A stretch of DNA of 64,000 nt from Prevotella sp. Rep29 (GTDB lineage: Bacteria > Bacteroidota > Bacteroidia > Bacteroidales > Bacteroidaceae), in contig NZ_CP047159.1 in the NCBI RefSeq assembly GCF_019551475.1, forward strand, positions 124,001 to 188,000, in the 5' to 3' direction. A program made the position numbers and the translations under genes. Below are positions 42,180-54,438 of this stretch, one piece after another; the first letter of the stretch is position 1; each line of letters opens with the position of its first letter. The notes beneath the pieces are model-generated. The model ran no database searches. It was not told the DNA's origin and saw only the letters and a program-made list of their open reading frames with translations.

Positions 42180-43637
42180 ATGAACAAGAAACAGGTAATG
42201 GACATACGTCCAAACTCTGATGGCATCAGCCAGGCAGAGAGTAACGAACAACAGCGAAACTGGAGCAAAGACTTCCTTCAGAAGAAATCCAATGACCCGA
42301 TGGCGAACTATGACCCGACACGAACACACCTGAATTTTGAGGTGGTTCGTGGTAGCATAGTCCAGCCTATCGACAAGTCGAAGTCCATCATGAAGATGAT
42401 GGCTGACAATCTTGCAGCACGTGGAATCAAAGACCCTAATGCCCGAGAGGATGTCCGTCGTCGGCAGAACACGCTGGCCCAATTTATCTTTGGCGGAAGC
42501 CGAGAACGTATGAACGAACTCGCCTTTGGCAACCAGACATTGAACCTTGGCAAAGGGGCTGACAACTCCCACCTGACACGGAACAATGACATCGAGGAAT
42601 GGGCTAAAGATGTATATGCTTTTGTTGCCCATCGTTTCGGCGAGGAGAACATCGTCAGCTTCTACGTCCATCTTGACGAGACCAATGTTCATGCACATTG
42701 TACACTTATTCCACTTGATCAGAAGAAGAACCGTATTTCGTGGCGTTCTGTATTTGGTCAAAACAGGTATGAGATGGGGCAGCTGTTTTCCCAACTGCAC
42801 GATGAGTTCTCAAAAGAGGTTAGTATGAAGTGGGGACTGGAACGAGGCGACAGCATCAGAGAAACTGGTGCCCGTCACCGATCCACTTATGAATACAAGC
42901 GGGAACTTGTTAATGACGTGAACCAGCTTGAAAGTCGGAAGGTTGGTTTGGCTGCCGACATCCGACAAGAAGAACGCAAACTGAAAAGTCTGACAACAAT
43001 GATAGCCAATCTTCGGGAGCGTCGTGCATCTATCCAGCGAGAGATAGACGAAATTGCCCGTAGCTTAGGTGAGGAAGGTACGGACAACATTCTTCTGACA
43101 GCCCGTATTAAGAACCTTCGCCAAGAGATGGAAGACATTGACAGCAAAATTGCTGAACGCTCCAAAATGCTAGAAGAAACGAGTGCCAGCCTTAAGAATA
43201 TTCGAGAAGAACTATTTGATATGAAACGAGAGCACCAAAGAGCCTTGGAAAGAGAAGGAGATGATATTGACAGGGAGGCGACACACGTCCGTATGGGAAT
43301 CAACAGTACCTACAATATGATGTTGGCTACGACTATGCAGGAAATTATCCCAACCCTAAACGATAAGCAACGTGACATCTTACGAGAGAAGGGTTATTAT
43401 GACCTTGCCGAAAACGTTCAAAATATAGCCAACTGTGCCATGTTACTGGCTATCAACTATGTCAAACAAGCCACGGATTACGCAGAATCATGCGGTGGCG
43501 GTGGTGTGTCTAACTTGTCTGGGTGGGGACAGAAGAAGGATGAAGATGATGTTCAATGGTGGGTGCGTTGTATCGCTACGGCTGCCGCAATGGTTAAACC
43601 AAGAGGGAAAAAACAGTCTGCAGGAGTAGGAAGATAA
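42180..43637 (+). CDS. mobV: MobV-family relaxase
   Basis: 485 residues. The relaxase region contains the metal-binding motif III FYVHLDETNVHAHCTLIPLD and motif RISWRSVFGQNRYEMGQLFSQLHDEF. A long coiled coil (about 240-360; LRQEMEDIDSKIAERSKMLEETSASLKNI) follows. MobV relaxases nick oriT and pilot the strand into a recipient, using the conjugation machinery of a helper element. No type IV secretion genes are in this window, so element 2 is mobilizable rather than self-transmissible. Confidence 0.92.
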   Translation: MNKKQVMDIRPNSDGISQAESNEQQRNWSKDFLQKKSNDPMANYDPTRTHLNFEVVRGSIVQPIDKSKSIMKMMADNLAARGIKDPNAREDVRRRQNTLAQFIFGGSRERMNELAFGNQTLNLGKGADNSHLTRNNDIEEWAKDVYAFVAHRFGEENIVSFYVHLDETNVHAHCTLIPLDQKKNRISWRSVFGQNRYEMGQLFSQLHDEFSKEVSMKWGLERGDSIRETGARHRSTYEYKRELVNDVNQLESRKVGLAADIRQEERKLKSLTTMIANLRERRASIQREIDEIARSLGEEGTDNILLTARIKNLRQEMEDIDSKIAERSKMLEETSASLKNIREELFDMKREHQRALEREGDDIDREATHVRMGINSTYNMMLATTMQEIIPTLNDKQRDILREKGYYDLAENVQNIANCAMLLAINYVKQATDYAESCGGGGVSNLSGWGQKKDEDDVQWWVRCIATAAAMVKPRGKKQSAGVGR

Positions 43638-43645
43638 AAAGTTAC

Positions 43646-43696
43646 GCCCGAATAAATCTCTTGTTGTGGGAATCATTCGGGCACGCAAACTTTTTT
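43646..43696 (+). terminator. Candidate terminator after mobV
   Basis: GCCCGAAT (43646-43653) pairs with ATTCGGGC (43675-43682), and a TTTTTT run follows at 43691-43696. The 8-nt gap between stem and T-run makes it a weak intrinsic terminator. Confidence 0.45.
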
Positions 43697-43745
43697 ATAC
43701 ACAAGTGTATAAGCAATAAGACCTCTTAAAATAGTTCTCCGAAAT

Positions 43746-43777
43746 TTTGGTCAGTTATACGAAAAAGTGTACCTTTG
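43746..43777 (+). promoter_or_regulatory. Promoter of the tRNA-sensing leader and RNA ligase operon
   Basis: TTTG at 43746-43749 and TACCTTTG at 43770-43777 are separated by 20 nt, an excellent match to the Bacteroidetes -33/-7 consensus. Transcription should start near 43784, about 30 nt upstream of the leader ORF. Confidence 0.75.
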
Positions 43778-43813
43778 CAGTCAATTTTACGAAAATCCAT
43801 AAAAATAGCAGTA

Positions 43814-43978
43814 ATGCAGAGACAGAAATTTAACATATTAGGCGGACTGAACATTCAGAGCACATGGTGCCTTGAATGCGATTCCTATATGCATACGTCA
43901 AGCATTGCTGCACCACGCTATTCAGATAGGAAGGCTTTCCATATTGCACGAGGAGGGAGTGGATTACTCCTGACATAA
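43814..43978 (+). CDS. Leader peptide rich in Trp/Cys/Ser/Tyr/Met/His codons
   Basis: A 54-residue ORF between a strong promoter and an intrinsic terminator. Codons 18-30 (43865-43903) encode WCLECDSYMHTSS. Seven of the eight tRNAs of the nearby array decode codons in this run: TGG, TGC, TAT, ATG, CAT, TCA and AGC. The eighth, Phe, decodes TTC at codon 42, followed by another CAT. Residues before the run (MQRQKFNILGGLNIQST) and after it look ordinary. Nothing suggests a stable folded protein. I read it as the sensor of a transcription attenuator: slow decoding of the run would leave 43935-43941 free to pair with the terminator. An alternative is a small protein of unknown function. The frame is also open upstream to 43775, but those codons overlap the -7 box. 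Confidence 0.65.
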   Translation: MQRQKFNILGGLNIQSTWCLECDSYMHTSSIAAPRYSDRKAFHIARGGSGLLLT

Positions 43979-44043
43979 TTGTACGTGCAAACACGAGATT
44001 AACGAAGTGGTTGGAAAGTCAGCAATGCTTTCCAACCATTTTT
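43935..44043 (+). promoter_or_regulatory. Attenuator: antiterminator segment and terminator before the RNA ligase gene
   Basis: TGGTTGGAAAG (44008-44018) and CTTTCCAACCA (44028-44038) form an 11-bp stem with a 9-nt loop, followed by TTTTT (44039-44043). CTTTCCA at 43935-43941, inside the leader ORF, can pair with TGGAAAG (44012-44018) of the terminator 5' arm, so the two structures exclude each other. No separate -7 box that I trust lies between 44044 and the ligase ATG at 44185, so ligase expression probably depends on reading through this terminator. Confidence 0.7.
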
Positions 44044-44184
44044 CGTTTGTGCCTATCACAACCATGAACACTGTCGACTTACCACCGACAAGACTTCTCC
44101 TCATCGGCCTGGCCTACGGCACAATATGTAGTCAATCAATTATTAACCGCGCAGCGATGCGCAAAAACAAGAAGGAACAAAGAA

Positions 44185-45222
44185 ATGTTAGAATTCAAAA
44201 AGTACAGCTCCATCGAGAATTCCTTCAACAGAGAGTTCATGGAGCGCATCATGGCAGAGATGCCTACCGATTTGGAATATGTGGTACAGGAAAAGGTACA
44301 TGGTGCCAATACCAGTTTCCTCTGCGACGGAGAGAAAGTAAGGTTTGCAAAGCGTACCTCCTTGCTGGAAGCGGAGGAGATGTTCTACGACTATCCCGAG
44401 TTGCTTGAAAGGTACAAAGACAAAGTCTTGGCCCTTGTCAAGGATGTCCTCAGCAGATATGAGGACGTGAGGAGCGTCAATGTCTTCGGTGAGATGTTTG
44501 GTGGGACCTATCCCCACAAGGATGTTCAGCCAAACCGCAAGTTGTCTCTCATCCAAAAGGGTGTATGCTACACTCCTGAGCATGAGTTCTATGGCTTTGA
44601 CATCTATGTCATCAACGAGGATGGCAGTAGGTATCTGCCTGTAGATGAAGTAAACGAGTTTTTCGACAAGCACGGATTCTTCTATGCCAGGACTCTGTTC
44701 AAGGGCACTCTCGGTGAATGTCTCAAATACCCTAACGCTTTCCAGAGCAAGATTGCCGAATGGCTTGGCTTCCCTGCCATTGAAGACAACATCTGCGAGG
44801 GTATCGTGATAAGACCTGTCGTTCCCATGTACCTGAGGAATGGAAGCAGGGTGCTCATCAAGAGCAAGAACGAGCGTTTTGCCGAAAAGAAGAGCGTGAA
44901 GAAACGCAACAAGCTCTTTGCCGAACCTGTTCCTTACAGCGAAGCCTTGAAGGCACTCGTTCCAGAGGTAGAGGCATACGTTACCGAACAGCGCCTGTCA
45001 AATGTGGTGAGCCACATAGGTGAGGTACACGTGCCTAAAGACTTCGGAAAAATCATGGGTCTGTTCTCTAAGGACGTGCTCGAAGATTTCTTGAAGGAAC
45101 ATGGCGGTGAGTATGGTTGCCTTGAAAAGAGCGAACAGAAGTTGCTCAACAAGGAACTAAACAAACTTTCCACTGAGATGGTGAAGAAGGTCTATATGGG
45201 CCAGGCTTACATACTCGATTAA
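44185..45222 (+). CDS. Rnl2-type RNA ligase
   Basis: 345 residues. The nucleotidyl-transferase motifs are in order: motif I EKVHGAN at 36-42 with the adenylated Lys37, RNA/DNA-ligase motif III VNVFGEMFGGTYPH, motif IIIa HEFYGFDIYV, motif IV CEGIVIRPV and motif V RVLIKSKNERFAEK. This is the T4 Rnl2 branch, which seals nicks with 3'-OH and 5'-phosphate ends. The C-terminal 100 residues form a helical domain. It is the first gene of an operon with two metallophosphoesterases and lies behind an attenuator. No polynucleotide kinase gene is seen nearby. Repair of cleaved tRNA is my inference. Confidence 0.9.
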   Translation: MLEFKKYSSIENSFNREFMERIMAEMPTDLEYVVQEKVHGANTSFLCDGEKVRFAKRTSLLEAEEMFYDYPELLERYKDKVLALVKDVLSRYEDVRSVNVFGEMFGGTYPHKDVQPNRKLSLIQKGVCYTPEHEFYGFDIYVINEDGSRYLPVDEVNEFFDKHGFFYARTLFKGTLGECLKYPNAFQSKIAEWLGFPAIEDNICEGIVIRPVVPMYLRNGSRVLIKSKNERFAEKKSVKKRNKLFAEPVPYSEALKALVPEVEAYVTEQRLSNVVSHIGEVHVPKDFGKIMGLFSKDVLEDFLKEHGGEYGCLEKSEQKLLNKELNKLSTEMVKKVYMGQAYILD

Positions 45223-45280
45223 TTAACAGACTCTCTCCGTGCTCCAAATGGGGCATGGAGAGAATAAAACAAAGAAGAAA

Positions 45281-45862
45281 ATGAATTTCAAGTTTAATGT
45301 AGAACATACGTTCTTTACATCAGATACGCATTTCAATCATGCGAACATTATCAAGTTTTGCAATCGTCCATTCAAGGACGTAGAGCAGATGAACGAGGTG
45401 ATGATAGCAAACTGGAACAGCGTGATAGGTAAAGATGATACAGTTTTCCACTTGGGCGATTTCTGCCTGGGCGGCGCAGCAGAATGGACAAAGATACTCG
45501 ACCGTCTGAATGGCAAAATTTATCTAATCATGGGTAACCACGATTTGAAGAATATTCGACAAGGATTCATCAGTCGCTTTGAGCATGTAGCCATGCAAAT
45601 GCACATCGAAGTCGGCAAGCAACGAATCTATCTGTGTCACTTTCCTTTTCTGTGCTTTGAGGGTGGATACAAGGACGTATGGCAGCTATTCGGTCATGTC
45701 CATACCCGAAAGAATAACACAGGAAATGACGCGGAGAGGCTCCAGTTTCTCTATCCGACCCAGTATGATGTGGGAGTGGACAACAATGGCTTTGCTCCAG
45801 TATCATTTGGGCAAGTAAAGAGAATCATTGACAAGCAAGTTGAACAAAGTAAAGAAAAGTAA
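45281..45862 (+). CDS. Calcineurin-like metallophosphoesterase 1
   Basis: 193 residues from the ATG at 45281; the frame extends to 45239, but the alignment starts at NVEHTFFTSDTHFNHANI. Motifs: DTHFNH, HLGDFCLGG, IMGNHD, YLCHFPF and FGHVHTR, the full set of metal ligands of the binuclear phosphoesterase superfamily. Members of this superfamily remove 2',3'-cyclic phosphates or phosphates from RNA ends in the bacterial Pnkp complex. That would prepare ends for the ligase upstream. The exact substrate is not known. Confidence 0.85.
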   Translation: MNFKFNVEHTFFTSDTHFNHANIIKFCNRPFKDVEQMNEVMIANWNSVIGKDDTVFHLGDFCLGGAAEWTKILDRLNGKIYLIMGNHDLKNIRQGFISRFEHVAMQMHIEVGKQRIYLCHFPFLCFEGGYKDVWQLFGHVHTRKNNTGNDAERLQFLYPTQYDVGVDNNGFAPVSFGQVKRIIDKQVEQSKEK

Positions 45863-45864
45863 CA

Positions 45865-46632
45865 ATGAAGATACAATACATGAGTGACCTGCATATGGAG
45901 TTCGCAGAGAACAGCAGGTATCTGAAACATAATGAGTTTCCTGTTACGGGTGATGTGCTGGTTCTGGCCGGTGACATCTTCTATCTGAGAAACGATGTGG
46001 CCCCACTGGGCAGGTTCTGGAAATGGGCATCCGAGAACTACAGGCAAGCCCTGATAGTCCCTGGCAACCATGACTACTACGGACATTATGATGTGATGGT
46101 TCGTGGTATGCATTGGACTTGGATGCTGAAAGACAATGTGGGCTATTACCAGAATCAGGTGGTTCGTATTGACGATACGGATTTCATCCTCAGCACTCTC
46201 TGGTCTCACATACCACCAACGCATGAGTATGTGGTGTCCCATGGGCTGAATGACTTCTATCAGACTCAATATGATGGACATCGCCTGACGGTCGAAGACT
46301 TTAACATGATACATCAGTATTGTCTCAGCTTCATCAAAAAAAGTATAGCAGAGAGTGTGGCTAAGCATATTGTTGTTGTCACCCATCACCTCCCGACACT
46401 AAAGGTGGTGGCTGACAGGCATTTGGGTTCTGACCTCAATCCGGGCTTCTCGACTGAACTTGGCGACTTCATTGCAGACAGCCCAATCGATGTCTGGATT
46501 TACGGTCATTCACACACGAACATCGACACAACGATAGGACATACTAAAATTGTGTGTAACCAGATGGGATATGTGTTTGCGAATGAGCATCTGACAAACG
46601 GATTTGACTTCGGCAAAATGATAGAGATTTAA
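45865..46632 (+). CDS. Calcineurin-like metallophosphoesterase 2
   Basis: 255 residues. Motifs: YMSDLHMEF, VLAGDIFYLR, VPGNHDYYGHYD, VVVTHHLPT and IYGHSHTNID. The five motif set is complete. It starts 2 nt after phosphoesterase 1 and overlaps the next gene by one base. It is a different subfamily from the first, closer to general Icc-like enzymes. Two phosphoesterases in the ligase operon suggests successive removal of cyclic phosphate and monophosphate. Confidence 0.85.
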   Translation: MKIQYMSDLHMEFAENSRYLKHNEFPVTGDVLVLAGDIFYLRNDVAPLGRFWKWASENYRQALIVPGNHDYYGHYDVMVRGMHWTWMLKDNVGYYQNQVVRIDDTDFILSTLWSHIPPTHEYVVSHGLNDFYQTQYDGHRLTVEDFNMIHQYCLSFIKKSIAESVAKHIVVVTHHLPTLKVVADRHLGSDLNPGFSTELGDFIADSPIDVWIYGHSHTNIDTTIGHTKIVCNQMGYVFANEHLTNGFDFGKMIEI

Positions 46633-47081
46633 TGAATGACAAACATACAAAGAAAAAGTATACAATTATGAGTGGAGGCACTTTTGATTATTCACAACGG
46701 ACTATAGAACTTATAGCTGATGATATCGAACAAACCATCTTGGAAGCAGGGAGAAAGATTCCTGATGTATTATTGGAAGAACAGCAACATCGTTACTCAC
46801 GAGAGATGCCATTGGAGGAACAATACTATCCTTCATATAATCGTAAGACAATGGACATCATGAAACGAGCTGTTTATATCCTTAGAATGGCATACATATA
46901 TGCACAGAGAATAGACTGGATGTTGTCTGGTGATGACGGTGAAGATGATCTCGTTAGACGCTTAGACAAAGAACTGCATGAGCTTAAAATGAAGTATCCT
47001 AGTGGAAAGTTCACGTTTAAGAAGAAAAGCGTTCGATATGATGCTGACTACGGTGGCTTTCGTGAAATGTCAGATGAGTAA
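46632..47081 (+). CDS. Small protein of unknown function in the ligase operon
   Basis: 149 residues; an alternative start is the ATG at 46668 (MSGGTFDYSQRTIELIADDIEQTI). The GGTFDYSQ...IADDIEQ pattern resembles small phage- and element-borne proteins of unknown function that I have seen near tRNA and phosphoesterase genes. The rest is helical and charged (RAVYILRMAYIYAQRIDWMLSGDDGEDDLVRRL). It shares its first A with the stop of phosphoesterase 2. Confidence 0.6.
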   Translation: MNDKHTKKKYTIMSGGTFDYSQRTIELIADDIEQTILEAGRKIPDVLLEEQQHRYSREMPLEEQYYPSYNRKTMDIMKRAVYILRMAYIYAQRIDWMLSGDDGEDDLVRRLDKELHELKMKYPSGKFTFKKKSVRYDADYGGFREMSDE

Positions 47082-47104
47082 ATGAATTATTAAAACAAAT
47101 AAAG

Positions 47105-47407
47105 ATGAATAGAAATAACAAACAAAGTGACAGAGAAATCTTAGAAGAAATACTTATGATTCTAAGAAATCTGAAAGCATCTCCTGTAGTTGTCCAGCCC
47201 TCTATGAAGGTTTACAAAAACAAAGAGGTTATGGAATTGCTGGGAGTGAAGGATAAATATCTCAAGAAACTAAGAGATAATGGATATCTTGGTTTTTCAA
47301 GAGAAGGCGATAAGTTTTGGTATACGCAGAAAGATGTAGATTGTTTTCTGCACAGTTTTCATTATGAACCATTTAATAGCAATATAAACAAATTATGGAC
47401 TCTTTAA
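47105..47407 (+). CDS. Small HTH_17-type DNA-binding protein
   Basis: 100 residues. KVYKNKEVMELLGVKDKYLKKLRDNGYLGFSREGDKFWYTQKDVDCFL is the excisionase-like winged helix of Bacteroidetes mobile elements. The N-terminal coiled coil (DREILEEILMILRNLK) may allow dimerisation. Placed after the ligase genes and before the WYL-type fragment, it may control this operon or the tRNA array. Confidence 0.8.
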   Translation: MNRNNKQSDREILEEILMILRNLKASPVVVQPSMKVYKNKEVMELLGVKDKYLKKLRDNGYLGFSREGDKFWYTQKDVDCFLHSFHYEPFNSNINKLWTL

Positions 47408-47422
47408 ATTATAAATACATTC

Positions 47423-47839
47423 ATGCCAGTAAACAAAAACGCATTATTGCGTTACAAGATAATAGACAGATGCCTACGCAACAGATACAGAAGATGGACG
47501 ATAGAGGACCTGGTTGATGAAGTTTCTGAAGCGCTGTACGACATGGAAGGTATCCGCAAAGGCATCTCTTTAAGAACTGTTCAGAACGATATACAGATCA
47601 TGCGTTCTGACAAGCTCGGATACAATGCGCCCATTGAGGTATATGATCAGAAGTACTACAGGTACGCTGATCCGAACTACTCTATTACAGAGTTGCCCCT
47701 GACAGCTGAGGACTTCAATCTTATTACTAAAGCTGTGAAAATGTTGGAAACGACAGGGGACAAACCAGAGTTTCAGCAAATGGGTAGAATACTCACACGG
47801 GTTAAGAAAAGGCTGACGGCAATTCTTAACTATGGATAA
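47423..47839 (+). CDS. WYL-type regulator N-terminal domain without the WYL domain
   Basis: 138 residues: MPVNKNALLRYKIIDRCLRNRYRRWTIEDLVDEVSEALYDMEGIRKGISLRTVQNDIQIMRSDKLGYNAPI is the winged-helix start of the large WYL regulators of Bacteroidetes (about 330 residues). The frame stops after a linker, with a proper terminator directly behind, so the sensory WYL and C-terminal domains are absent. It is either a truncated remnant or a stand-alone DNA-binding protein. WYL domains bind nucleic-acid ligands in some systems, so its loss changes how it could respond. Confidence 0.7.
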   Translation: MPVNKNALLRYKIIDRCLRNRYRRWTIEDLVDEVSEALYDMEGIRKGISLRTVQNDIQIMRSDKLGYNAPIEVYDQKYYRYADPNYSITELPLTAEDFNLITKAVKMLETTGDKPEFQQMGRILTRVKKRLTAILNYG

Positions 47840-47842
47840 TGG

Positions 47843-47880
47843 AAAGACTCCAGTTCCTTTTATCGGCAACTGGAGTCTTT
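47843..47880. terminator. Bidirectional terminator between the ligase operon and the tRNA array
   Basis: AAAGACTCCAGTT and AACTGGAGTCTTT form a 13-bp stem with a 12-nt loop and A/T-runs on both sides. It ends both the forward operon and the reverse tRNA transcript. Confidence 0.85.
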
Positions 47881-47889
47881 ATTTGTTGA

Positions 47890-47962
47890 GTGAGGAATCG
47901 GATTCGAACCGATGAATGACGGTTTTGCAGACCGCCCCCTTAAACCGCTCGGGCATCCTCAC
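47890..47962 (-). tRNA. tRNA-Cys (GCA)
   Basis: 73 nt. Acceptor GTGAGGA/TCCTCAC, anticodon loop CTGCAAA in stem GCGGT/ACCGT, T-arm ATCGG-TTCGAAT-CCGAT. No CCA is encoded. Last gene of the array. Confidence 0.88.
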
Positions 47963-47969
47963 GTAATAG

Positions 47970-48043
47970 GGAGTTTGACAGGTTTCGAACCTGCGACCAC
48001 CAGAGCCACAACCTGGCGCTCTACCTACTGAGCTACAAACTCC
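47970..48043 (-). tRNA. tRNA-His (GTG)
   Basis: 74 nt. Acceptor GGAGTTT/AAACTCC, D-arm AGCTCAGTAGGTAGAGC, anticodon loop TTGTGGC, T-arm GCAGG-TTCGAAA-CCTGT. CCA is not encoded. Confidence 0.88.
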
Positions 48044-48050
48044 ATGTAGT

Positions 48051-48136
48051 TGCGGGAGCAGGATTCGAACCTGCGTCCGGTTTTTGGCCGGCCCAGCTTA
48101 TGAGACTGGTGAGTTGGGCCACTACTCTATCCCGCG
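48051..48136 (-). tRNA. Initiator-like tRNA with anticodon CAT and an extra-long variable arm
   Basis: 86 nt. The acceptor is CGCGGGA/TCCCGCA with the C1-A72 mismatch of bacterial initiator tRNA. The D-stem GAGT/ACTC has the initiator-like A11-T24. The T-arm GCAGG-TTCGAAT-CCTGC is also initiator-like. But the anticodon stem is CCAGT/GCTGG, without the three consecutive G-C pairs of initiators, and the variable region GCCGGCCAAAAACCGGAC folds into a 4-bp arm that Met tRNAs do not have. This is a chimera of unknown decoding role. Confidence 0.8.
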
Positions 48137-48142
48137 ATTTTG

Positions 48143-48215
48143 CAGAAGCAGAAGGGTTCGAACCTCCGACCTTCGGTTTTGGAGACCGACATTCTACCAA
48201 CTGAACTATGCTCCC
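48143..48215 (-). tRNA. tRNA-Trp (CCA)
   Basis: 73 nt with discriminator. Acceptor GGGAGCA/TGCTTCT, anticodon loop CTCCAAA in stem CGGT/ACCG, T-arm GGAGG-TTCGAAC-CCTTC. Confidence 0.87.
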
Positions 48216-48220
48216 ATCGT

Positions 48221-48301
48221 TGAGGTGGAGGGACTCGAACCCACGAAGCCGAATGGCGGCAGATTTACAGTCTGCTCTCGTTGCCGCTGGAGAACACCTC
48301 A
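48221..48301 (-). tRNA. tRNA-Tyr (GTA)
   Basis: 81 nt, class II. Acceptor TGAGGTG/CACCTCA, anticodon loop CTGTAAA in stem GCAGA/TCTGC, long variable arm CGCCATTCGGCTTC, T-loop TTCGAGT. Confidence 0.86.
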
Positions 48302-48310
48302 ATATATTTG

Positions 48311-48383
48311 TGGAACCTCGTGGAGTCGAACCACGTTCTCAGGATTTTCAGTCCTGCGCATACACCAAGTCTGCCAAAGTTCC
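48311..48383 (-). tRNA. tRNA-Phe (GAA)
   Basis: 73 nt. Acceptor GGAACTT/AGGTTCC, anticodon loop CTGAAAA in stem CAGGA/TCCTG, T-arm CGTGG-TTCGACT-CCACG. The D-arm (TGGCAGACTTGGTGTATGCG) is Leu-like, unlike ordinary bacterial tRNA-Phe, so the body is divergent. Confidence 0.82.
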
Positions 48384-48388
48384 ATCAG

Positions 48389-48476
48389 AGGAGGCTAAGG
48401 GATTCGAACCCTTGGAGCGTTTTACCGCCCTCTGGTTTTCAAGACCAGTGCAATAGACCAACTCTGCCAAACCTCC
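48389..48476 (-). tRNA. tRNA-Ser (TGA)
   Basis: 88 nt, class II. Acceptor GGAGGTT/AGCCTCC, anticodon loop CTTGAAA in stem CTGGT/ACCAG, long variable arm, T-arm AAGGG-TTCGAAT-CCCTT. Confidence 0.85.
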
Positions 48477-48484
48477 AACTTATG

Positions 48485-48569
48485 CGGAAGCAGAAGGATT
48501 CAAACCTTCGGAGCCTTGCGGCTCGGCACGTTAGCAGTGTGCTGGTTTCGACCGCTAACCCATACTTCC
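48485..48569 (-). tRNA. tRNA-Ser (GCT)
   Basis: 85 nt, class II. Acceptor GGAAGTA/TGCTTCC, anticodon loop CTGCTAA, variable arm CGAGCCGCAAGGCTCC, T-loop TTTGAAT. First gene of the array, just downstream of the promoter. Confidence 0.83.
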
Positions 48570-48657
48570 ATTGGATTTAACTCCGTTCAATTCCGTCACG
48601 ACTCGACATAGCATGAGTAAACTCCGCTCTGTTCTCGCTGTTCCGTCATTTCGGGTG

Positions 48658-48665
48658 CAAAGGTA
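48658..48665 (-). promoter_or_regulatory. -7 box of the tRNA array
   Basis: Reads TACCTTTG on the reverse strand, about 90 nt upstream of tRNA-Ser(GCT), in the only place where an array promoter could lie. I see no clear -33 TTTG at 19-21 nt. The rest of 48570-48882 contains no gene. Confidence 0.6.
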
Positions 48666-48882
48666 CAATGCCACTCTGCAGCCTTTCTGCGTAACAAGAA
48701 AAAGTTACAAAAAAATGATTATTTTTCGCTAATGATTATTGACAAATTAGCTTTTCCCATAAGTACAAAGCATAAATGCCCAAATGAATTACTGATAACA
48801 AGTAGTCATTCGGACATTCTTATGTAAATCTTGGAAAAATGTATAAAAAGAGGCAAAAACACCTTGGAAAAGTGTAATTGCA

Positions 48883-49905
48883 TCATTTAAATCCCAACGT
48901 CACACGTCGATAGTTGTACGAAAGCCAGTAGCTGCGTTTCAATGGGTCTGACAGGAAGGAACGGTTGATTAATTCTTTGGCCAACGGATGTTCCTTGGCA
49001 AAGAAATCCAATTCCCGTTTCACCAATTTTGCAGTCATACCAATGCGATGACCAAACTCCTCGAAGTCCTTACGGCCAACAGTTCTTGTATCGGATAGTT
49101 GCATGCCTTCTTTGAACAATCCTTTATCAAGAGCGAAGATGCGTGGCATGCTCAAATGTAGACTGGTATTGATGAGGTCGTAGGCAGGGGTGAGGTGGTA
49201 TTCTCCGTCACCTCGGTTGATTAGTGAGAAATTTTTCAGATGCGCGTCATCGTTGAGGGTAAGATAGTTGAAGACAACGATGCGGAAGAACTTTAGGATT
49301 TCAACGGGAGCAGCCTTGACGTATTTGCGGATGATGTCCGCACACTCCTCGTAGCTCAAATTACTATATTTGTAATCGCTGCCACCATTGGCATTGGTAA
49401 GTCCTGCCAGCGAGGCGAAATCTTCCTGACTATACTTCTGTCCATCTGGTCCGACATCGAAACGTCGGCAAAGATAGGCTGCTTCACCATCTTGGAAGAA
49501 ACAAATGCCATTAGCAGCAGTCTCAATGTGATAGACTTGAGAAGCCAACTGCATCGTCAGATGTTCATTGGCTGGACAATATTTGCGGTCAAGCAAAGCA
49601 TAGGATGAAGGAGCCGGTTTCAAGATGTATGTTCCACGTTCACCTTCGGCTGGCTTTACCAAATGTCCCTCACTATCCATCACCAAACTCGCCTTGGGCT
49701 GAACGCCAGAAAGCGAGATTCGTCCTACATTCTTCAGATAGGCTTCATTGTCGGCACTGTCATTGTCGGCACTGTCATTGTTGGGGCTGTCAAAATCCAA
49801 CACATGAAAAACCTCCTTCCCGTCAAACAATAGTTTTCGGGCTACAGGGGAATAGGTGATAAAGCCTTCCTGCAAGGTGGAAGGGCAAACATAGACCTCT
49901 ATCAT
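48883..49905 (-). CDS. hipT: HipT-like kinase, element 2
   Basis: 340 residues from the ATG at 49905, 2 nt past the hipS stop; a GTG at 49911 overlaps that stop. Kinase motifs: ISLSGVQPKASLVMD (glycine-rich loop), YILKPAP, YLTLNDDAHLKNFSLINR (catalytic Asp and Asn) and LTPAYDLINTS (DxxN). In contrast to the element 1 protein there is no Cys-rich N-terminus; residues near 45-60 contain the repeat NDSADNDSADNE, from a 15-bp tandem repeat at 49748-49790. Likely a tRNA-synthetase-directed kinase, as in HipBST. Confidence 0.85.
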   Translation of the reverse strand: MIEVYVCPSTLQEGFITYSPVARKLLFDGKEVFHVLDFDSPNNDSADNDSADNEAYLKNVGRISLSGVQPKASLVMDSEGHLVKPAEGERGTYILKPAPSSYALLDRKYCPANEHLTMQLASQVYHIETAANGICFFQDGEAAYLCRRFDVGPDGQKYSQEDFASLAGLTNANGGSDYKYSNLSYEECADIIRKYVKAAPVEILKFFRIVVFNYLTLNDDAHLKNFSLINRGDGEYHLTPAYDLINTSLHLSMPRIFALDKGLFKEGMQLSDTRTVGRKDFEEFGHRIGMTAKLVKRELDFFAKEHPLAKELINRSFLSDPLKRSYWLSYNYRRVTLGFK

Positions 49906-49907
49906 AT

Positions 49908-50216
49908 TCACATCGGTTTAATGGTTACGGCTCCGATGGTATCGTGCCCGGCTGTTGCAAGCATGATACCAAAATCATCGTTTTCATCGATATGATGCAA
50001 CATGGATTGCACCTGACGATTGGAGCCTTCAGACAACATGTTATAAAAATAAGGAAAGAGATGGTTGGAACGGTAAGGCTCTTTTCTTACGGGCATTGCC
50101 AAGCAAAGTGGCTCACCGTGGTAGTCCTCACCATAAGTGAACACATATTCCCTGGCATCCGTCTCTTGCAATATGCCTGCCTCCATATCGTGAACATAAA
50201 CTTTACACTGTCTCAT
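49908..50216 (-). CDS. hipS: HipS-like small protein, element 2
   Basis: 102 residues from the ATG at 50216 (MRQCKVYVHDMEAGILQE), matching the element 1 start; the frame to 50222 begins with TTG. The fold landmarks are LCLAMPVRKEPYRSNHLFPYFYNMLSEGSNRQVQ and FGIMLATAGHDTIGAVTI. It overlaps hipB by 14 nt. Confidence 0.83.
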   Translation of the reverse strand: MRQCKVYVHDMEAGILQETDAREYVFTYGEDYHGEPLCLAMPVRKEPYRSNHLFPYFYNMLSEGSNRQVQSMLHHIDENDDFGIMLATAGHDTIGAVTIKPM

Positions 50217-50424
50217 AATCAAGCTGCTTGATGTTAATGTCTATTTGCAAACCCAAAGTATCGAGTATCGTGAGCAAGGTGGCGAGCTGAGGATTACCCT
50301 CGCCTCGTTCAATCGCTACAACGGTATTAACAGCTACACTTGCCAGGTCAGCCAATGTTTGTTGGTTGATACCCAATTTTTTCCTTCTTTCCTTGATGGC
50401 ATTCCCTATTTCCTGTTGTATCAT
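50203..50424 (-). CDS. hipB: HipB-like Xre-family antitoxin/repressor, element 2
   Basis: 73 residues from the ATG at 50424 (MIQQEIGNAIKERRKKL). The longer frame to 50463 starts upstream of the expected transcription start. HTH: LGINQQTLADLASVAVNTVVAIERGEGNPQLATLLTILDTLGL. Three copies of a TTGCGATTT-like motif lie in and around the promoter and may be its operators. Confidence 0.85.
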   Translation of the reverse strand: MIQQEIGNAIKERRKKLGINQQTLADLASVAVNTVVAIERGEGNPQLATLLTILDTLGLQIDINIKQLDYETV

Positions 50425-50450
50425 AATCTCAATATATTGCGATTTCGGTG

Positions 50451-50567
50451 CAAAGATAAGCAATTCTTTTCAAACAAAGGCGCAAATTCTCAATAAAATG
50501 CGATTTTAGGTATAATTTACTATGAATTGCCATAATAATATGTAAAAATCACAACAAATTGCGATTT
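50451..50567 (-). promoter_or_regulatory. hipBST promoter and operator-like repeats, element 2
   Basis: The -7 box TATCTTTG is at 50451-50458 on the reverse strand. ATTGCGATTT or ATGCGATTT occurs at about 50437-50445, 50499-50507 and 50559-50567 on the forward strand. Regular spacing of some 60 bp suggests repressor binding. Confidence 0.5.
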
Positions 50568-52544: not shown

Positions 52545-53822
52545 ATGATACGAGATTTTTGGGTAAAGAACTATCTTTCCATTCGCGACAAGCAGGAATT
52601 AAACTTTGTGGCAAAAGGACCATCTTCGGAACTTGTCACCGAAGTTGCTGATGGCGTATTCTTATATAAGTTAGGCATCCTATATGGTTCAAATGCTTCG
52701 GGCAAGTCGAATATGCTGATAGCTTTGAATAGCGTATTTAGTATATTGGTTCATCCGAAATCAAAAGTGACCTCAAAAATCAATAGAATACCATTTGCTC
52801 TCACAAAAGATCAATCTACAGAAATGTATGTGTCGTTCTATGCTGATGGTATTAGGTATGATTATGGCGTGACATTTAACGAAAAATATATTTTGAATGA
52901 AGTCTTGTACTATTATCCCAACAAGTCCAAGTCTTTGTTCTATGAACGCTCATTCGTTGGCGAAAACGTACAGGCAAATATTAAGTTTGGGCAGAGCCTT
53001 AAACTGCAAGATAAGACTGCTGAAAGTATTCGAGAAAATACTTGGAACAACCATAGTGTCTTGGCTGTTTGCGGGAAAGTTGCACTGAAAGAGGATGTTG
53101 CTACATTCATTCATCTTTACGATTGGATTATGAAGAATTATCATGAAGTGGATGGTGACGAGGAGATAGGGATTGTTGAATTTCTTAAGGAAGCGCATGG
53201 CGATTCATCAAAACGTAAGTTCTTCAATCTTATGCTGCAAAAAGCCGATTTGAATATTATGGAGTTTAGGCCAATCATAGAAGACCGTATCTTGTCAGAT
53301 GAACTTCGTGAGCGCATTATAAAGCAGGATTTTTCTGAAAAGGTGAAAGAAGACCTTCTTAAACCTACGACAGAATCTATAGCCTTCATTAATCATTCTG
53401 CGGAAGGCAATTTTGAGATACCTCTCAAATGGCAGTCAAAAGGTACTATAAAATACATACGCATACTGGATGCATTATATGATATGATAACAAGTCCTCA
53501 TGTATATTATCTTGATGAATTAGGAGAGGATTTACATAATGACCTGTTGTACTACTATCTCAATGTCTTCATCTTCAATTCCGATAAGTCGCAGCTGATT
53601 ATCACGAGTCAGGAGACCACCCTCCTTTCGCAGGATATGATTAACGATAACAGAGGCGTGGTGTGGTTTGTTGAAAAGAACAAGGATACTGCATCATCCG
53701 AATATGCCCGTGGTGACTCCTTTGGCTTGCACAAGAATCTCTCGCTATACAATTCATATCGTATTGGCCGATTGGGAGCCAAGCCAGAACTGGGTAGTAT
53801 CTTTATAAACTTGGAGGACTGA
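52545..53822 (+). CDS. rloA: RloA-like AAA ATPase
   Basis: 425 residues. MIRDFWVKNYLSIRDKQELNF and Walker A GILYGSNASGKSNMLIAL at 44-61. The Walker B and D-loop are VYYLDELGEDLHNDLLYYY and the H-loop region is QLIITSQETTLL. This AAA_15/21 family is the RloA partner of RloB, first named as R-linked ORFs near hsd genes in Campylobacter. In the similar PARIS system an AAA_15 ATPase releases a TOPRIM effector upon sensing a phage inhibitor. The gene precedes rloB by 1 nt. Confidence 0.85.
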   Translation: MIRDFWVKNYLSIRDKQELNFVAKGPSSELVTEVADGVFLYKLGILYGSNASGKSNMLIALNSVFSILVHPKSKVTSKINRIPFALTKDQSTEMYVSFYADGIRYDYGVTFNEKYILNEVLYYYPNKSKSLFYERSFVGENVQANIKFGQSLKLQDKTAESIRENTWNNHSVLAVCGKVALKEDVATFIHLYDWIMKNYHEVDGDEEIGIVEFLKEAHGDSSKRKFFNLMLQKADLNIMEFRPIIEDRILSDELRERIIKQDFSEKVKEDLLKPTTESIAFINHSAEGNFEIPLKWQSKGTIKYIRILDALYDMITSPHVYYLDELGEDLHNDLLYYYLNVFIFNSDKSQLIITSQETTLLSQDMINDNRGVVWFVEKNKDTASSEYARGDSFGLHKNLSLYNSYRIGRLGAKPELGSIFINLED

Positions 53823-53823
53823 T

Positions 53824-54438
53824 ATGGGGAAACTACGACAAACAGCACTCATCCTGGGTGAAGGGCCAACGAAGTTCTTCTACTTTAAGTCCCTATGCGA
53901 CGTGTTCAAGCGTCTGACCATCAAGCCAGACTACCCGAAGCATACCAACATCAAGGAACTGGAAGCCAAGATTGAGGAGGGGGTGGCAATGGGTTACAGC
54001 CATATCTTCTGCATTATTGATATGGATACGAAAGATAGGGAGCCTGAACGTTCACAATATCAGAAACTAAAGACAAAGTATGCCAAGCCTATCGACAAGC
54101 CAAAGAAAGGCATCTATTGCGAGGTGGAGTTCTTCGAGACTCACCGCTGCACCGAACTATTCTTCCTTTACTATTTCCGCTACACCTCACGTCCATACGA
54201 AACACAAGAGCCTTTACTCAAAGACCTCAACCAATGTGTCGAGTATCGAAAGACGATAGAGTTTTTCATCAAAACCAGAGGATTGCATGGTTACTTTGAG
54301 CGCAATGGTGGTAGTCTTGAAAAGGCTGTGATCAATGCTAAACGTTCAATGGATGAGAAGTTGAAGGATGGTAGAGATTATACCTACTCGGAACTGGGAA
54401 GGTTAATTGAAAGATTAAAAAAACTGATTACAATTTGA
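53824..54438 (+). CDS. rloB: RloB-like TOPRIM protein
   Basis: 204 residues. ALILGEGPTKFFYFKSLCDVF carries the catalytic-type Glu, and HIFCIIDMDTKDREPERSQY the D-x-D motif of a TOPRIM fold. CEVEFFETHRCTELFFLYYF is the conserved RloB segment. In PARIS the TOPRIM effector AriB cleaves tRNA, so RNA or DNA cleavage is plausible here; the target is unknown. It ends just before the ATG of the AAA_13-like gene at 54450. Confidence 0.85.
   Translation: MGKLRQTALILGEGPTKFFYFKSLCDVFKRLTIKPDYPKHTNIKELEAKIEEGVAMGYSHIFCIIDMDTKDREPERSQYQKLKTKYAKPIDKPKKGIYCEVEFFETHRCTELFFLYYFRYTSRPYETQEPLLKDLNQCVEYRKTIEFFIKTRGLHGYFERNGGSLEKAVINAKRSMDEKLKDGRDYTYSELGRLIERLKKLITI

Follow-up and report, generated by a model that had tools for sequence, protein, structure and literature searches.

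A candidate multi-tRNA transcription attenuator ahead of an RNA-ligase operon in a Prevotella mobile element

How is an RNA-ligase operon that runs towards a set of tRNA genes switched on? This question is raised by a locus in a 64,000-nucleotide stretch of the Prevotella sp. Rep29 genome (NCBI RefSeq assembly GCF_019551475.1, contig NZ_CP047159.1, positions 124,001–188,000, forward strand), which we call the window and in whose coordinates all positions are given. Here a leader region is followed by the genes for an Rnl2 ligase, two metallophosphoesterases, two small proteins and a WYL-type protein, and this operon converges on eight tRNA genes (Table 1). The initial annotation had described the promoter, a leader open reading frame (ORF) of 54 codons, the terminator, the ligase gene and the tRNA genes, all of which are present, and had read the leader as an attenuator that senses the loss of the element's own tRNAs. 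By comparing homologous loci, which are labelled L001–L211 and are called ligase-type or WYL-type after the gene that follows the leader, we conclude that the leader (43746–44043) is probably a ribosome-controlled transcription attenuator. The attenuator as such is well supported, as terminator, antiterminator and two upstream hairpins covary and the ORF keeps its frame, and control by the ribosome is what we infer from these comparisons. The sensing of own tRNAs, on the other hand, is too strong a reading for this locus.

The switch would be formed by two exclusive pairings. The pairing of CTTTCCA at 43935–43941 with 44012–44018, which had been proposed initially, holds and is part of a 9 bp duplex between 43933–43941 (segment 2) and 44012–44020 with −13.6 kcal/mol; the stretch 44012–44020 is common to the terminator, as its 5′ arm, and to the antiterminator. 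In a swap test we compared the duplex energy of matched arms with that of arms dealt among the lineages (14 lineages for the hairpins P0 and P1, 13 for the rest, near-identical leaders being collapsed). The antiterminator covaries between lineages (P = 0.0012) and so do the terminator arms (0 of 5000 permutations), P0 (P = 0.0028) and P1 (P = 0.0026). The other 15 of the 19 arm pairings tested gave P values of 0.026–0.88, and the sole one below 0.05 joins the ORF start to the P0 3′ arm and adjoins P0. Compensatory variants of antiterminator and terminator are found in L013 (ACTCCCCA/TGGGGAGT) and in L032 (GACTTCCC/GGGAAGTC). For 18 of 19 leaders, and in a further set for 8 of 10, nothing pairs better with the terminator arm than the homologous segment close to the end of the ORF.

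The hairpin P1 (8 bp, 7-nt loop, codons 14–21) has 94.7% of its cells paired across 26 leaders and a covariation of 1.51 compared to a maximum of 0.94 across 50 column shuffles; the copy in the window holds a single A·C mismatch. P0 encloses P1 by linking codons 7–10 to 24–27 in a register that varies between lineages: in the L017 register 71.4% of the cells are paired in the 26 leaders, the register of the window being shifted. When codons 13–43 of the window are folded alone with RNAfold, the stretch of the P0 3′ arm pairs with codons 37–39 instead. For the whole structure none of 500 shuffles equals the cells paired or the covariation score, and 30 of 500 reach the count of cells changed on both sides. 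The pairs changed on both sides are reached by 263 and the further pair types by 440 of the 500 shuffles.

A candidate anti-antiterminator was rejected, as segment 2 failed the swap test with the ORF start (0.051) and with the P1 arms, the P0 arms and the preceding stretch (0.34–0.86). Because these alternative RNA partners failed, we propose that segment 2 is masked by the ribosome: a moving ribosome would cover it and a ribosome stalled upstream would leave it exposed. Also dropped was a pairing of AAGCATTGCTG in the window with the terminator loop, which looked good by eye; the loop is not alike in other lineages.

The leader ORF is probably translated. Segment 2 lies in one frame in 19 of 23 leaders and does so at 7 different positions (the motifs for this count were chosen by eye). 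The exceptions are four similar leaders, L011–L013 and L146, and in L011–L013 the frame is regained a few bases later (by eye). The ORF is open in 31 leaders and in ten more, the L003 copy being without the usual start, and the 66-nt repeat inside the ORF of L005, L006 and L009 is inserted in frame so that the ORF stays open. An open frame of this extent would also be expected if the ORF product were a small protein with a function of its own and the terminator an ordinary upstream one. Since terminator and segment 2 covary, the N- and C-terminal codons vary freely and Pfam gives no match, we attach hardly any weight to this explanation. As in TnaC and ErmCL, the nascent leader peptide could arrest the ribosome together with a small molecule, and the residues N-I, Q-G and Y-V-H-T do recur across lineages. 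However, they stand mostly at positions that pair in P0 and P1, and the peptide is otherwise very divergent between lineages, so that an arrest peptide appears very improbable.

More weight, though still not much, can be given to a leader RNA that binds a ligand or a protein independently of translation, with the ORF as a by-product or of minor importance. P1 with its 7-nt loop and the CUUACC/CUUCUCC motif would then be the binding site. P0 and P1 are indeed deeply conserved with covariation, and a CUUACC-like motif recurs in terminator or post-terminator loops. Rfam holds no matching family: the search of 43000–49500 gave no T-box match at E values up to 1, the leader in the window had no cis-regulatory match above the gathering score, and L137–L141, L154 and L156 yielded tRNA matches only. 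Nevertheless, the frame kept through segment 2, the 66-nt in-frame insertion and a correlation of codons and tRNA arrays seen in frame only (see below) point to translation, which makes a binding RNA a rather unlikely explanation.

Returning to the ribosome-controlled attenuator, we suggest the following course of events. A ribosome stalled within the first 30-odd codons, likely for want of a tRNA called for there, would leave 43933–43941 free to capture the terminator 5′ arm at 44012–44020. With the antiterminator formed, the polymerase would read through into the RNA-ligase operon. P0 and P1 might make the polymerase pause or keep it in synchrony with the ribosome. The physiological signal could be cleavage or depletion of tRNAs, for example by an anticodon nuclease, and the array would afterwards replace the missing tRNAs and thereby close the switch. 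One point argues against masking in this form. In most leaders the stop codon is ∼30–40 nt beyond segment 2 and therefore a terminating ribosome would leave segment 2 uncovered.

Which tRNAs would then be sensed? In the initial annotation, codons 18–30 of the leader ORF were matched to the tRNAs of the array. The best 13-codon run of the window holds 8 array-matched codons (P = 0.027), or 9 with ATG (P = 0.017). With up to 20,000 windows as background, drawn from long ORFs of the window and of ten loci, the run is modestly above chance. CAT tRNAs were taken to read ATG in early codon counts such as the off-frame counts given below, and were excluded from the correlation tests onwards, the 75-nt one of L049 included. 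In fact the CAT tRNA of the array (48049–48136, minus strand) starts with C1 and ends with GCA as the initiator-type tRNA of the host does (C1 × A72, by eye). Being initiator-like it should not decode the internal ATG at codon 26, so that the proposed match of this tRNA with the ATG of the run is not to be expected. In addition, codons 18–30 overlap P1 (43854–43876) and the P0 3′ arm (43884–43891), and part of their conservation is therefore explained by RNA pairing.

For the ligase-type leaders several observations weigh against sensing of the own array. The whole ORF of the window is not enriched (15 of 53 codons matched, P = 0.149; 16 with ATG, P = 0.179). Codons 18–30 are identical or one codon off in the array-bearing window, L001, L002 and L010 as well as in the array-less L003, L004 and L006–L008 (one synonymous change in L004, M26T in L006, H27Q in L007), and L009 has nearly the same run with a different array (Cys, Arg, His, Ser). 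ARAGORN detected no tRNA in the 14–40 kb downstream of all eight array-less leaders searched (L003, L006–L008, L011–L013, L057); for L004 6 kb downstream were covered. Conversely, P1 and the terminator are kept without the codon run in L011–L013, L015, L020, L028, L029, L032 and L018b, and L057 keeps P1 without the run, a situation that the initial annotation had named as speaking against its reading. Among seven ligase-type loci with arrays (the window, L009, L024, L027, L031, L048 and L049, out of 15 tRNA-bearing loci) leader and array are not correlated (r = 0.034, P = 0.36). The other eight (L001, L002, L010, L017, L019, L023, L039, L040) were not used, being near copies or having partial arrays, and the tRNA set of L031 counts Gly and Leu tRNAs located upstream of the leader.

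Codon enrichment across the 14 lineages, with near-identical leaders collapsed, failed as a test. Among the residues of the window array only Cys (19 vs 6.0 expected) and Ser (39 vs 24.5) were clearly above expectation and W, H, F and M were not, and W/C/Y/H codons number 98 in frame +2 compared to 56 in the true frame. A comparison of single sites mildly favours array matching. The sites at which only the codon of the window belongs to the array set of the window relate to those at which only the codon of the other leader does as 3:1, 9:4, 10:1 and 5:1 for the similar array-less leaders L011, L012, L013 and L146, and as 12:9, 6:4, 10:5, 6:6, 7:6 and 8:6 for L015, L017, L020, L028, L031 and L032. 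Overall the codon–array idea is weak for the ligase-type leader of the window. As the run persists without the array, the switch persists without the run and no correlation is found, the claim that the leader senses when the element loses its own tRNAs goes too far here, and stalling at any depleted tRNA, be it of the host or of the element, fits this locus better.

The picture is different for sister leaders that stand directly ahead of a WYL-type gene, of which L137, L140, L141 and L154 have the fullest arrays. In L137, L141 and L154 the own array decodes 32 of 50, 37 of 51 and 33 of 50 codons, respectively, and none of 20,000 gene windows scores as high; in L140 it decodes 24 of 51 (P = 0.0036), and off frame the counts are 13–21 (L137, L140, L141). 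At codons that differ between two leaders, those decoded by the own array only stand to those decoded by the other array only as 12:0 (L141–L154), 13:1 (L137–L154) and 14:4 (L140–L154), and in the remaining pairs as 7:2 (L137–L140), 2:0 (L137–L141) and 1:0 (L140–L141). The L154 array, which is without Tyr and Ser-TGA tRNAs and has Pro and Arg-CCG tRNAs, goes with a leader containing 1 Tyr codon (4–5 in the sisters), 1 TCN codon (6) and 3 Pro codons (1–2). Likewise, L140 with an intact Cys tRNA has 2 Cys codons, L141 with a degenerate one has 1, and L137, which lacks this tRNA, has none.

These four WYL-type loci, of then six, rank 1 of 24 in a permutation of leaders and arrays, and codons 2–27 alone and 28 to the end alone rank 2 of 24 each. 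When L138 and L139, whose arrays are shrunk to two and one tRNAs, were added, 3 of 720 permutations resulted, and 11 array loci (seven ligase-type and four WYL-type) gave P = 0.0022 in frame and 0.89 and 0.44 off frame. L209, from a Segatella hominis plasmid, and L211 were found later in plasmid and phage collections. Their leaders are nearly identical to that of L137, with 23 of 50 and 29 of 50 matching codons. For all eight WYL-type array loci the observed value is reached by 22 of 20,000 permutations in frame, compared to 19,466 and 6,870 off frame, all these permutation values being optimistic because leaders and arrays share ancestry. The tRNA sets did not include the broken Thr tRNA of L140 and the degenerate Cys tRNA of L141 (identity by eye); no codon was assigned to the TCA anticodon of L137, and the Arg-TCG tRNA of L211 was taken as reading CGN.

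Several loci deviate from the rule. L154 holds one Cys codon without a Cys tRNA, L140 retains nine Ser codons although no Ser tRNA was detected, in L138 and L139 no more than 8 of 50 and 1 of 52 codons match, and L209 retains five Tyr and four Phe codons with an array devoid of Tyr and Phe tRNAs. In L211 a Tyr-like tRNA is interrupted (by eye). The codons of L209 and the interrupted tRNA of L211 suggest that codon–array matching lags or is imperfect. The covariation of control codons with the tRNA set, a check proposed in the initial annotation, was found for the WYL-type and not for the ligase-type leaders. That codons of WYL-type leaders follow the tRNA set of the array imperfectly is supported by the sequence comparison, with the exceptions named.

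Taking both groups together, we suggest tentatively, and with confidence that falls just short of even, that Bacteroidales mobile elements carry multi-tRNA attenuators whose codons are selected to mirror the own array and that cutting or loss of exactly these tRNAs, by stalling the ribosome, switches on ligase, phosphoesterases and WYL-type gene. The ligase leader of the window may be less array-specific and a broader sensor of stalling than the WYL-type leaders. A general stall sensor, in which the ORF samples many codons, the switch responds to any block of elongation, whether by a drug against the ribosome or by a shortage of any tRNA, and the matching in ligase-type leaders is incidental, is on the whole unlikely but deserves to be taken seriously. 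Against it stand the WYL-type leaders, which track their arrays, and five of the 14 leaders (L020, L029, L013, L018b, L057) contain only 15–16 amino acids.

The leader recurs in front of Rnl2 ligases and is also found ahead of metallophosphoesterases and of the WYL-type gene beside tRNA arrays. A genome scan for the ligase returned 53 loci, the leader–ligase homologues being mainly from Prevotella and other Bacteroidales. A leader profile (23 seeds, 22 of them from the 53 loci; model R1 was run on 34 loci) finds a match ahead of the ligase at 31 of these 53 loci; some loci end short of the leader. Profile and model R1 gave no match for L014, L016, L021, L022, L026 and more distant ligases; leader and ligase are thus separable. 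When genomes were scanned with a covariance model, 23 of 398 from the genus and 3 of 393 from the order proved to have leaders, both counts including that of the window. With another model the numbers were 4 of 90, 1 of 5, 2 of 8 and 8 of 110 for sets that overlap. No ligase follows the leader in L137–L141 and L154, where the WYL-type gene is directly 3′ of the leader, in L142, L143 and L155, where a metallophosphoesterase is, and in L145, where the leader is followed by another gene and then a phosphoesterase. With the window leader blastn gave no match in plasmid and phage collections (the plasmid leader L209 was found by another route), and model R1 detected no leader at the ligase relatives L086–L089 on viral contigs. 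The pattern match L150 on a viral contig was set aside as probably due to chance.

Some leaders and ligases have unusual arrangements. A tandem pair of complete leaders with terminators precedes a single ligase in L018 (5404–5917). A palindromic repeat lies within the leader ORF of L003, L005, L006 and L009 (in frame in the latter three), and similar repeats are present 3′ of the terminator in L003–L006 and L069, the L005 stretch being masked. On a single contig (G079:C90; L057, L061, L062) an intact divergent ligase is accompanied by two more fragments bearing stops. The ligase of L010 (6001–7034, Prevotella dentasini JCM 15908) appears to be frameshifted in its record, as the matches fall in two frames.

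Table 1. Parts of the leader, genes of the operon and tRNA array (positions in the window)
Feature	Position	Strand	Basis
Promoter: TTTG (43746–43749) and TACCTTTG (43770–43777)	43746–43777	+	sequence; Bacteroidota-type
Leader ORF, 54 codons, MQRQKFNILGGLNIQSTWCLECDSYMHTSSIAAPRYSDRKAFHIARGGSGLLLT	43814–43978	+	sequence; homologous ORFs; frame conservation
P0 5′ arm CATATTAGG, one bulged T	43834–43842	+	sequence; swap test
P1 5′ arm TTCAGAGC, then 7-nt loop (43862–43868)	43854–43861	+	covariation
P1 3′ arm GCCTTGAA	43869–43876	+	covariation
Proposed control-codon run, codons 18–30, WCLECDSYMHTSS	43865–43903	+	codon-window statistics
P0 3′ arm CCTATATG, codons 24–26	43884–43891	+	sequence; swap test
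Segment 2 (delta), antiterminator 5′ strand GGCTTTCCA	43933–43941	+	pairing with 44012–44020; covariation
Intrinsic terminator	44004–44042	+	−21.8 kcal/mol; arm covariation
Post-terminator element: hairpin GTCG-ACTTACCAC-CGAC and CTTCTCC	44073–44100	+	sequence comparison
Rnl2-family RNA ligase	44185–45222	+	PF09414, PF18043; TIGR02307 224.3 bits (cut-off 197.15)
Metallophosphoesterase 1	45281–45862	+	PF00149; phrog_547
Metallophosphoesterase 2	45865–46632	+	PF00149; phrog_1649
149-aa protein	46632–47081	+	no match in Pfam, NCBIfam, PHROGs
Small helix-turn-helix protein	47105–47407	+	weak HTH_17, under family cut-off
WYL-type gene, 138 aa	47423–47839	+	tblastn relatives; convergent with tRNA genes
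tRNA array, 8 genes: Cys, His, initiator-like CAT, Trp, Tyr, Phe, Ser(TGA), Ser(GCT)	47888–48569	−	
Array promoter, −7 box TACCTTTG	48658–48665	−	sequence; presumed consensus

The promoter was assigned by TTTG and TACCTTTG, which we take to be the Bacteroidota consensus, and transcription of the leader would start a few bases 3′ of 43777. The promoter portion of the leader profile is also found upstream of the four tRNA arrays of L017, L023, L024 and L048 (E values of 0.0056 to 9.5e-6). The post-terminator element is a second conserved RNA: its hairpin has the loop ACTTACCAC and is followed by CTTCTCC, and its stem is altered yet paired in L007 and L011. A motif resembling this element sits in the terminator loop of other lineages. 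With a relaxase (Mob_Pre) and a tyrosine integrase at its flanks, the ligase and array region resembles a mobile element. Beside it are what we presume, from the translations, to be HipA/HipB-like genes (48883–50463, minus strand) and an ATPase with an RloB-like partner (52545–54438, plus strand). Among the operon proteins (Rnl2, phosphoesterases, small proteins), to which this search was confined, there is neither an RtcB ligase nor a CARF/sigma-54 activator.

The array would add to the supply of tRNAs. The anticodon loops of its Cys, Trp, Tyr, Phe and Ser-TGA tRNAs are identical to those of the host and the loops of His and Ser-GCT are one base apart, the tRNA bodies being different (all by eye); therefore the array is not obviously nuclease-proof at the anticodon. 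The CAT tRNA has, oddly, a long variable arm in addition to its initiator-like ends. Short tRNAs are found in the arrays of L137 (2490–2561, TCA), L154 (4612–4682, CCG) and L211 (5679–5750, TCG), and the TCA tRNA of L137 has a glutamine-like body and possibly serves altered decoding or as a suppressor.

The 138-aa WYL-type gene is found by tblastn in all 14 fetched ligase-type and all six WYL-type loci with tRNAs at the operon end (a single tRNA in L019, L040 and L139). It occurs in few array-less loci, intact in L008/L099 and truncated in L144 and L156. The protein has no match in Pfam, NCBIfam and PHROGs, and of 19 plasmid records in which a relative occurs, 14 annotate it as 'WYL domain-containing protein'. 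We regard it as a candidate regulator of the array. As 3,068 relatives are present at E values up to 0.001 among 4,380 candidates, the rule connecting codons and arrays is testable at scale.

The leader peptides of the trp, his and ilv/leu operons are ribosome-mediated attenuators of amino-acid operons. The leader described here shares with them a short ORF with codons that would report on tRNA supply, a promoter-proximal terminator, an exclusive antiterminator and an early hairpin that possibly pauses the polymerase. It differs from them as it precedes RNA-repair genes and a gene connected to a tRNA array and not a biosynthetic operon, as it has codons for up to ∼10 tRNAs which in sister loci follow the neighbouring array, and as segment 2 is inside the ORF, mostly ∼30–40 nt ahead of the stop. 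T-box riboswitches also answer the state of a tRNA by transcription antitermination; these RNAs directly bind one tRNA, and Rfam gave no T-box match at our locus. Dense clusters of tRNA genes, including those of phages and plasmids, have reportedly been studied as tRNA array units, and the arrays described here differ in being coupled to a WYL-type gene and an attenuator-like leader.

Functionally, the system that comes closest is RtcR, a protein by which cut tRNAs are sensed. The RNA repair operon rsr-yrlBA-rtcBA is induced by tRNA damage, and its CARF-domain regulator RtcR binds 5′ tRNA fragments with a cyclic phosphate (PMC7790460). Both systems have an RNA-ligase operon, and the induction by tRNA damage described there is what we propose here; they differ in that here an RNA in cis and the ribosome would sense tRNA shortage and that the ligase is Rnl2 and not RtcB. 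Phage RNA ligases and tRNA sets counter RNase effectors (PMC7824862). The ligase, the phosphoesterases and the tRNAs of our locus would similarly repair or replace cut tRNAs, but here in Prevotella mobile elements and with a candidate attenuator, which the passages on the phage systems do not describe. A literature search on attenuation in connection with RNA ligases or tRNA cleavage, on tRNA arrays of mobile elements and on Bacteroides leader peptides yielded no multi-tRNA attenuator of RNA repair, in agreement with the initial annotation, which knew of none for an RNA ligase.

By what means phages and mobile elements would notice cut tRNAs early enough for repair is largely an open question. 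If our suggestion is true, these elements would possess a translation-based alarm against attacks on tRNAs. By reading many tRNAs simultaneously through the ribosome, such an alarm would be general and evolvable, as an altered array would be followed by altered codons. The codons of a leader would then give a clue to the tRNAs targeted by a hidden nuclease.

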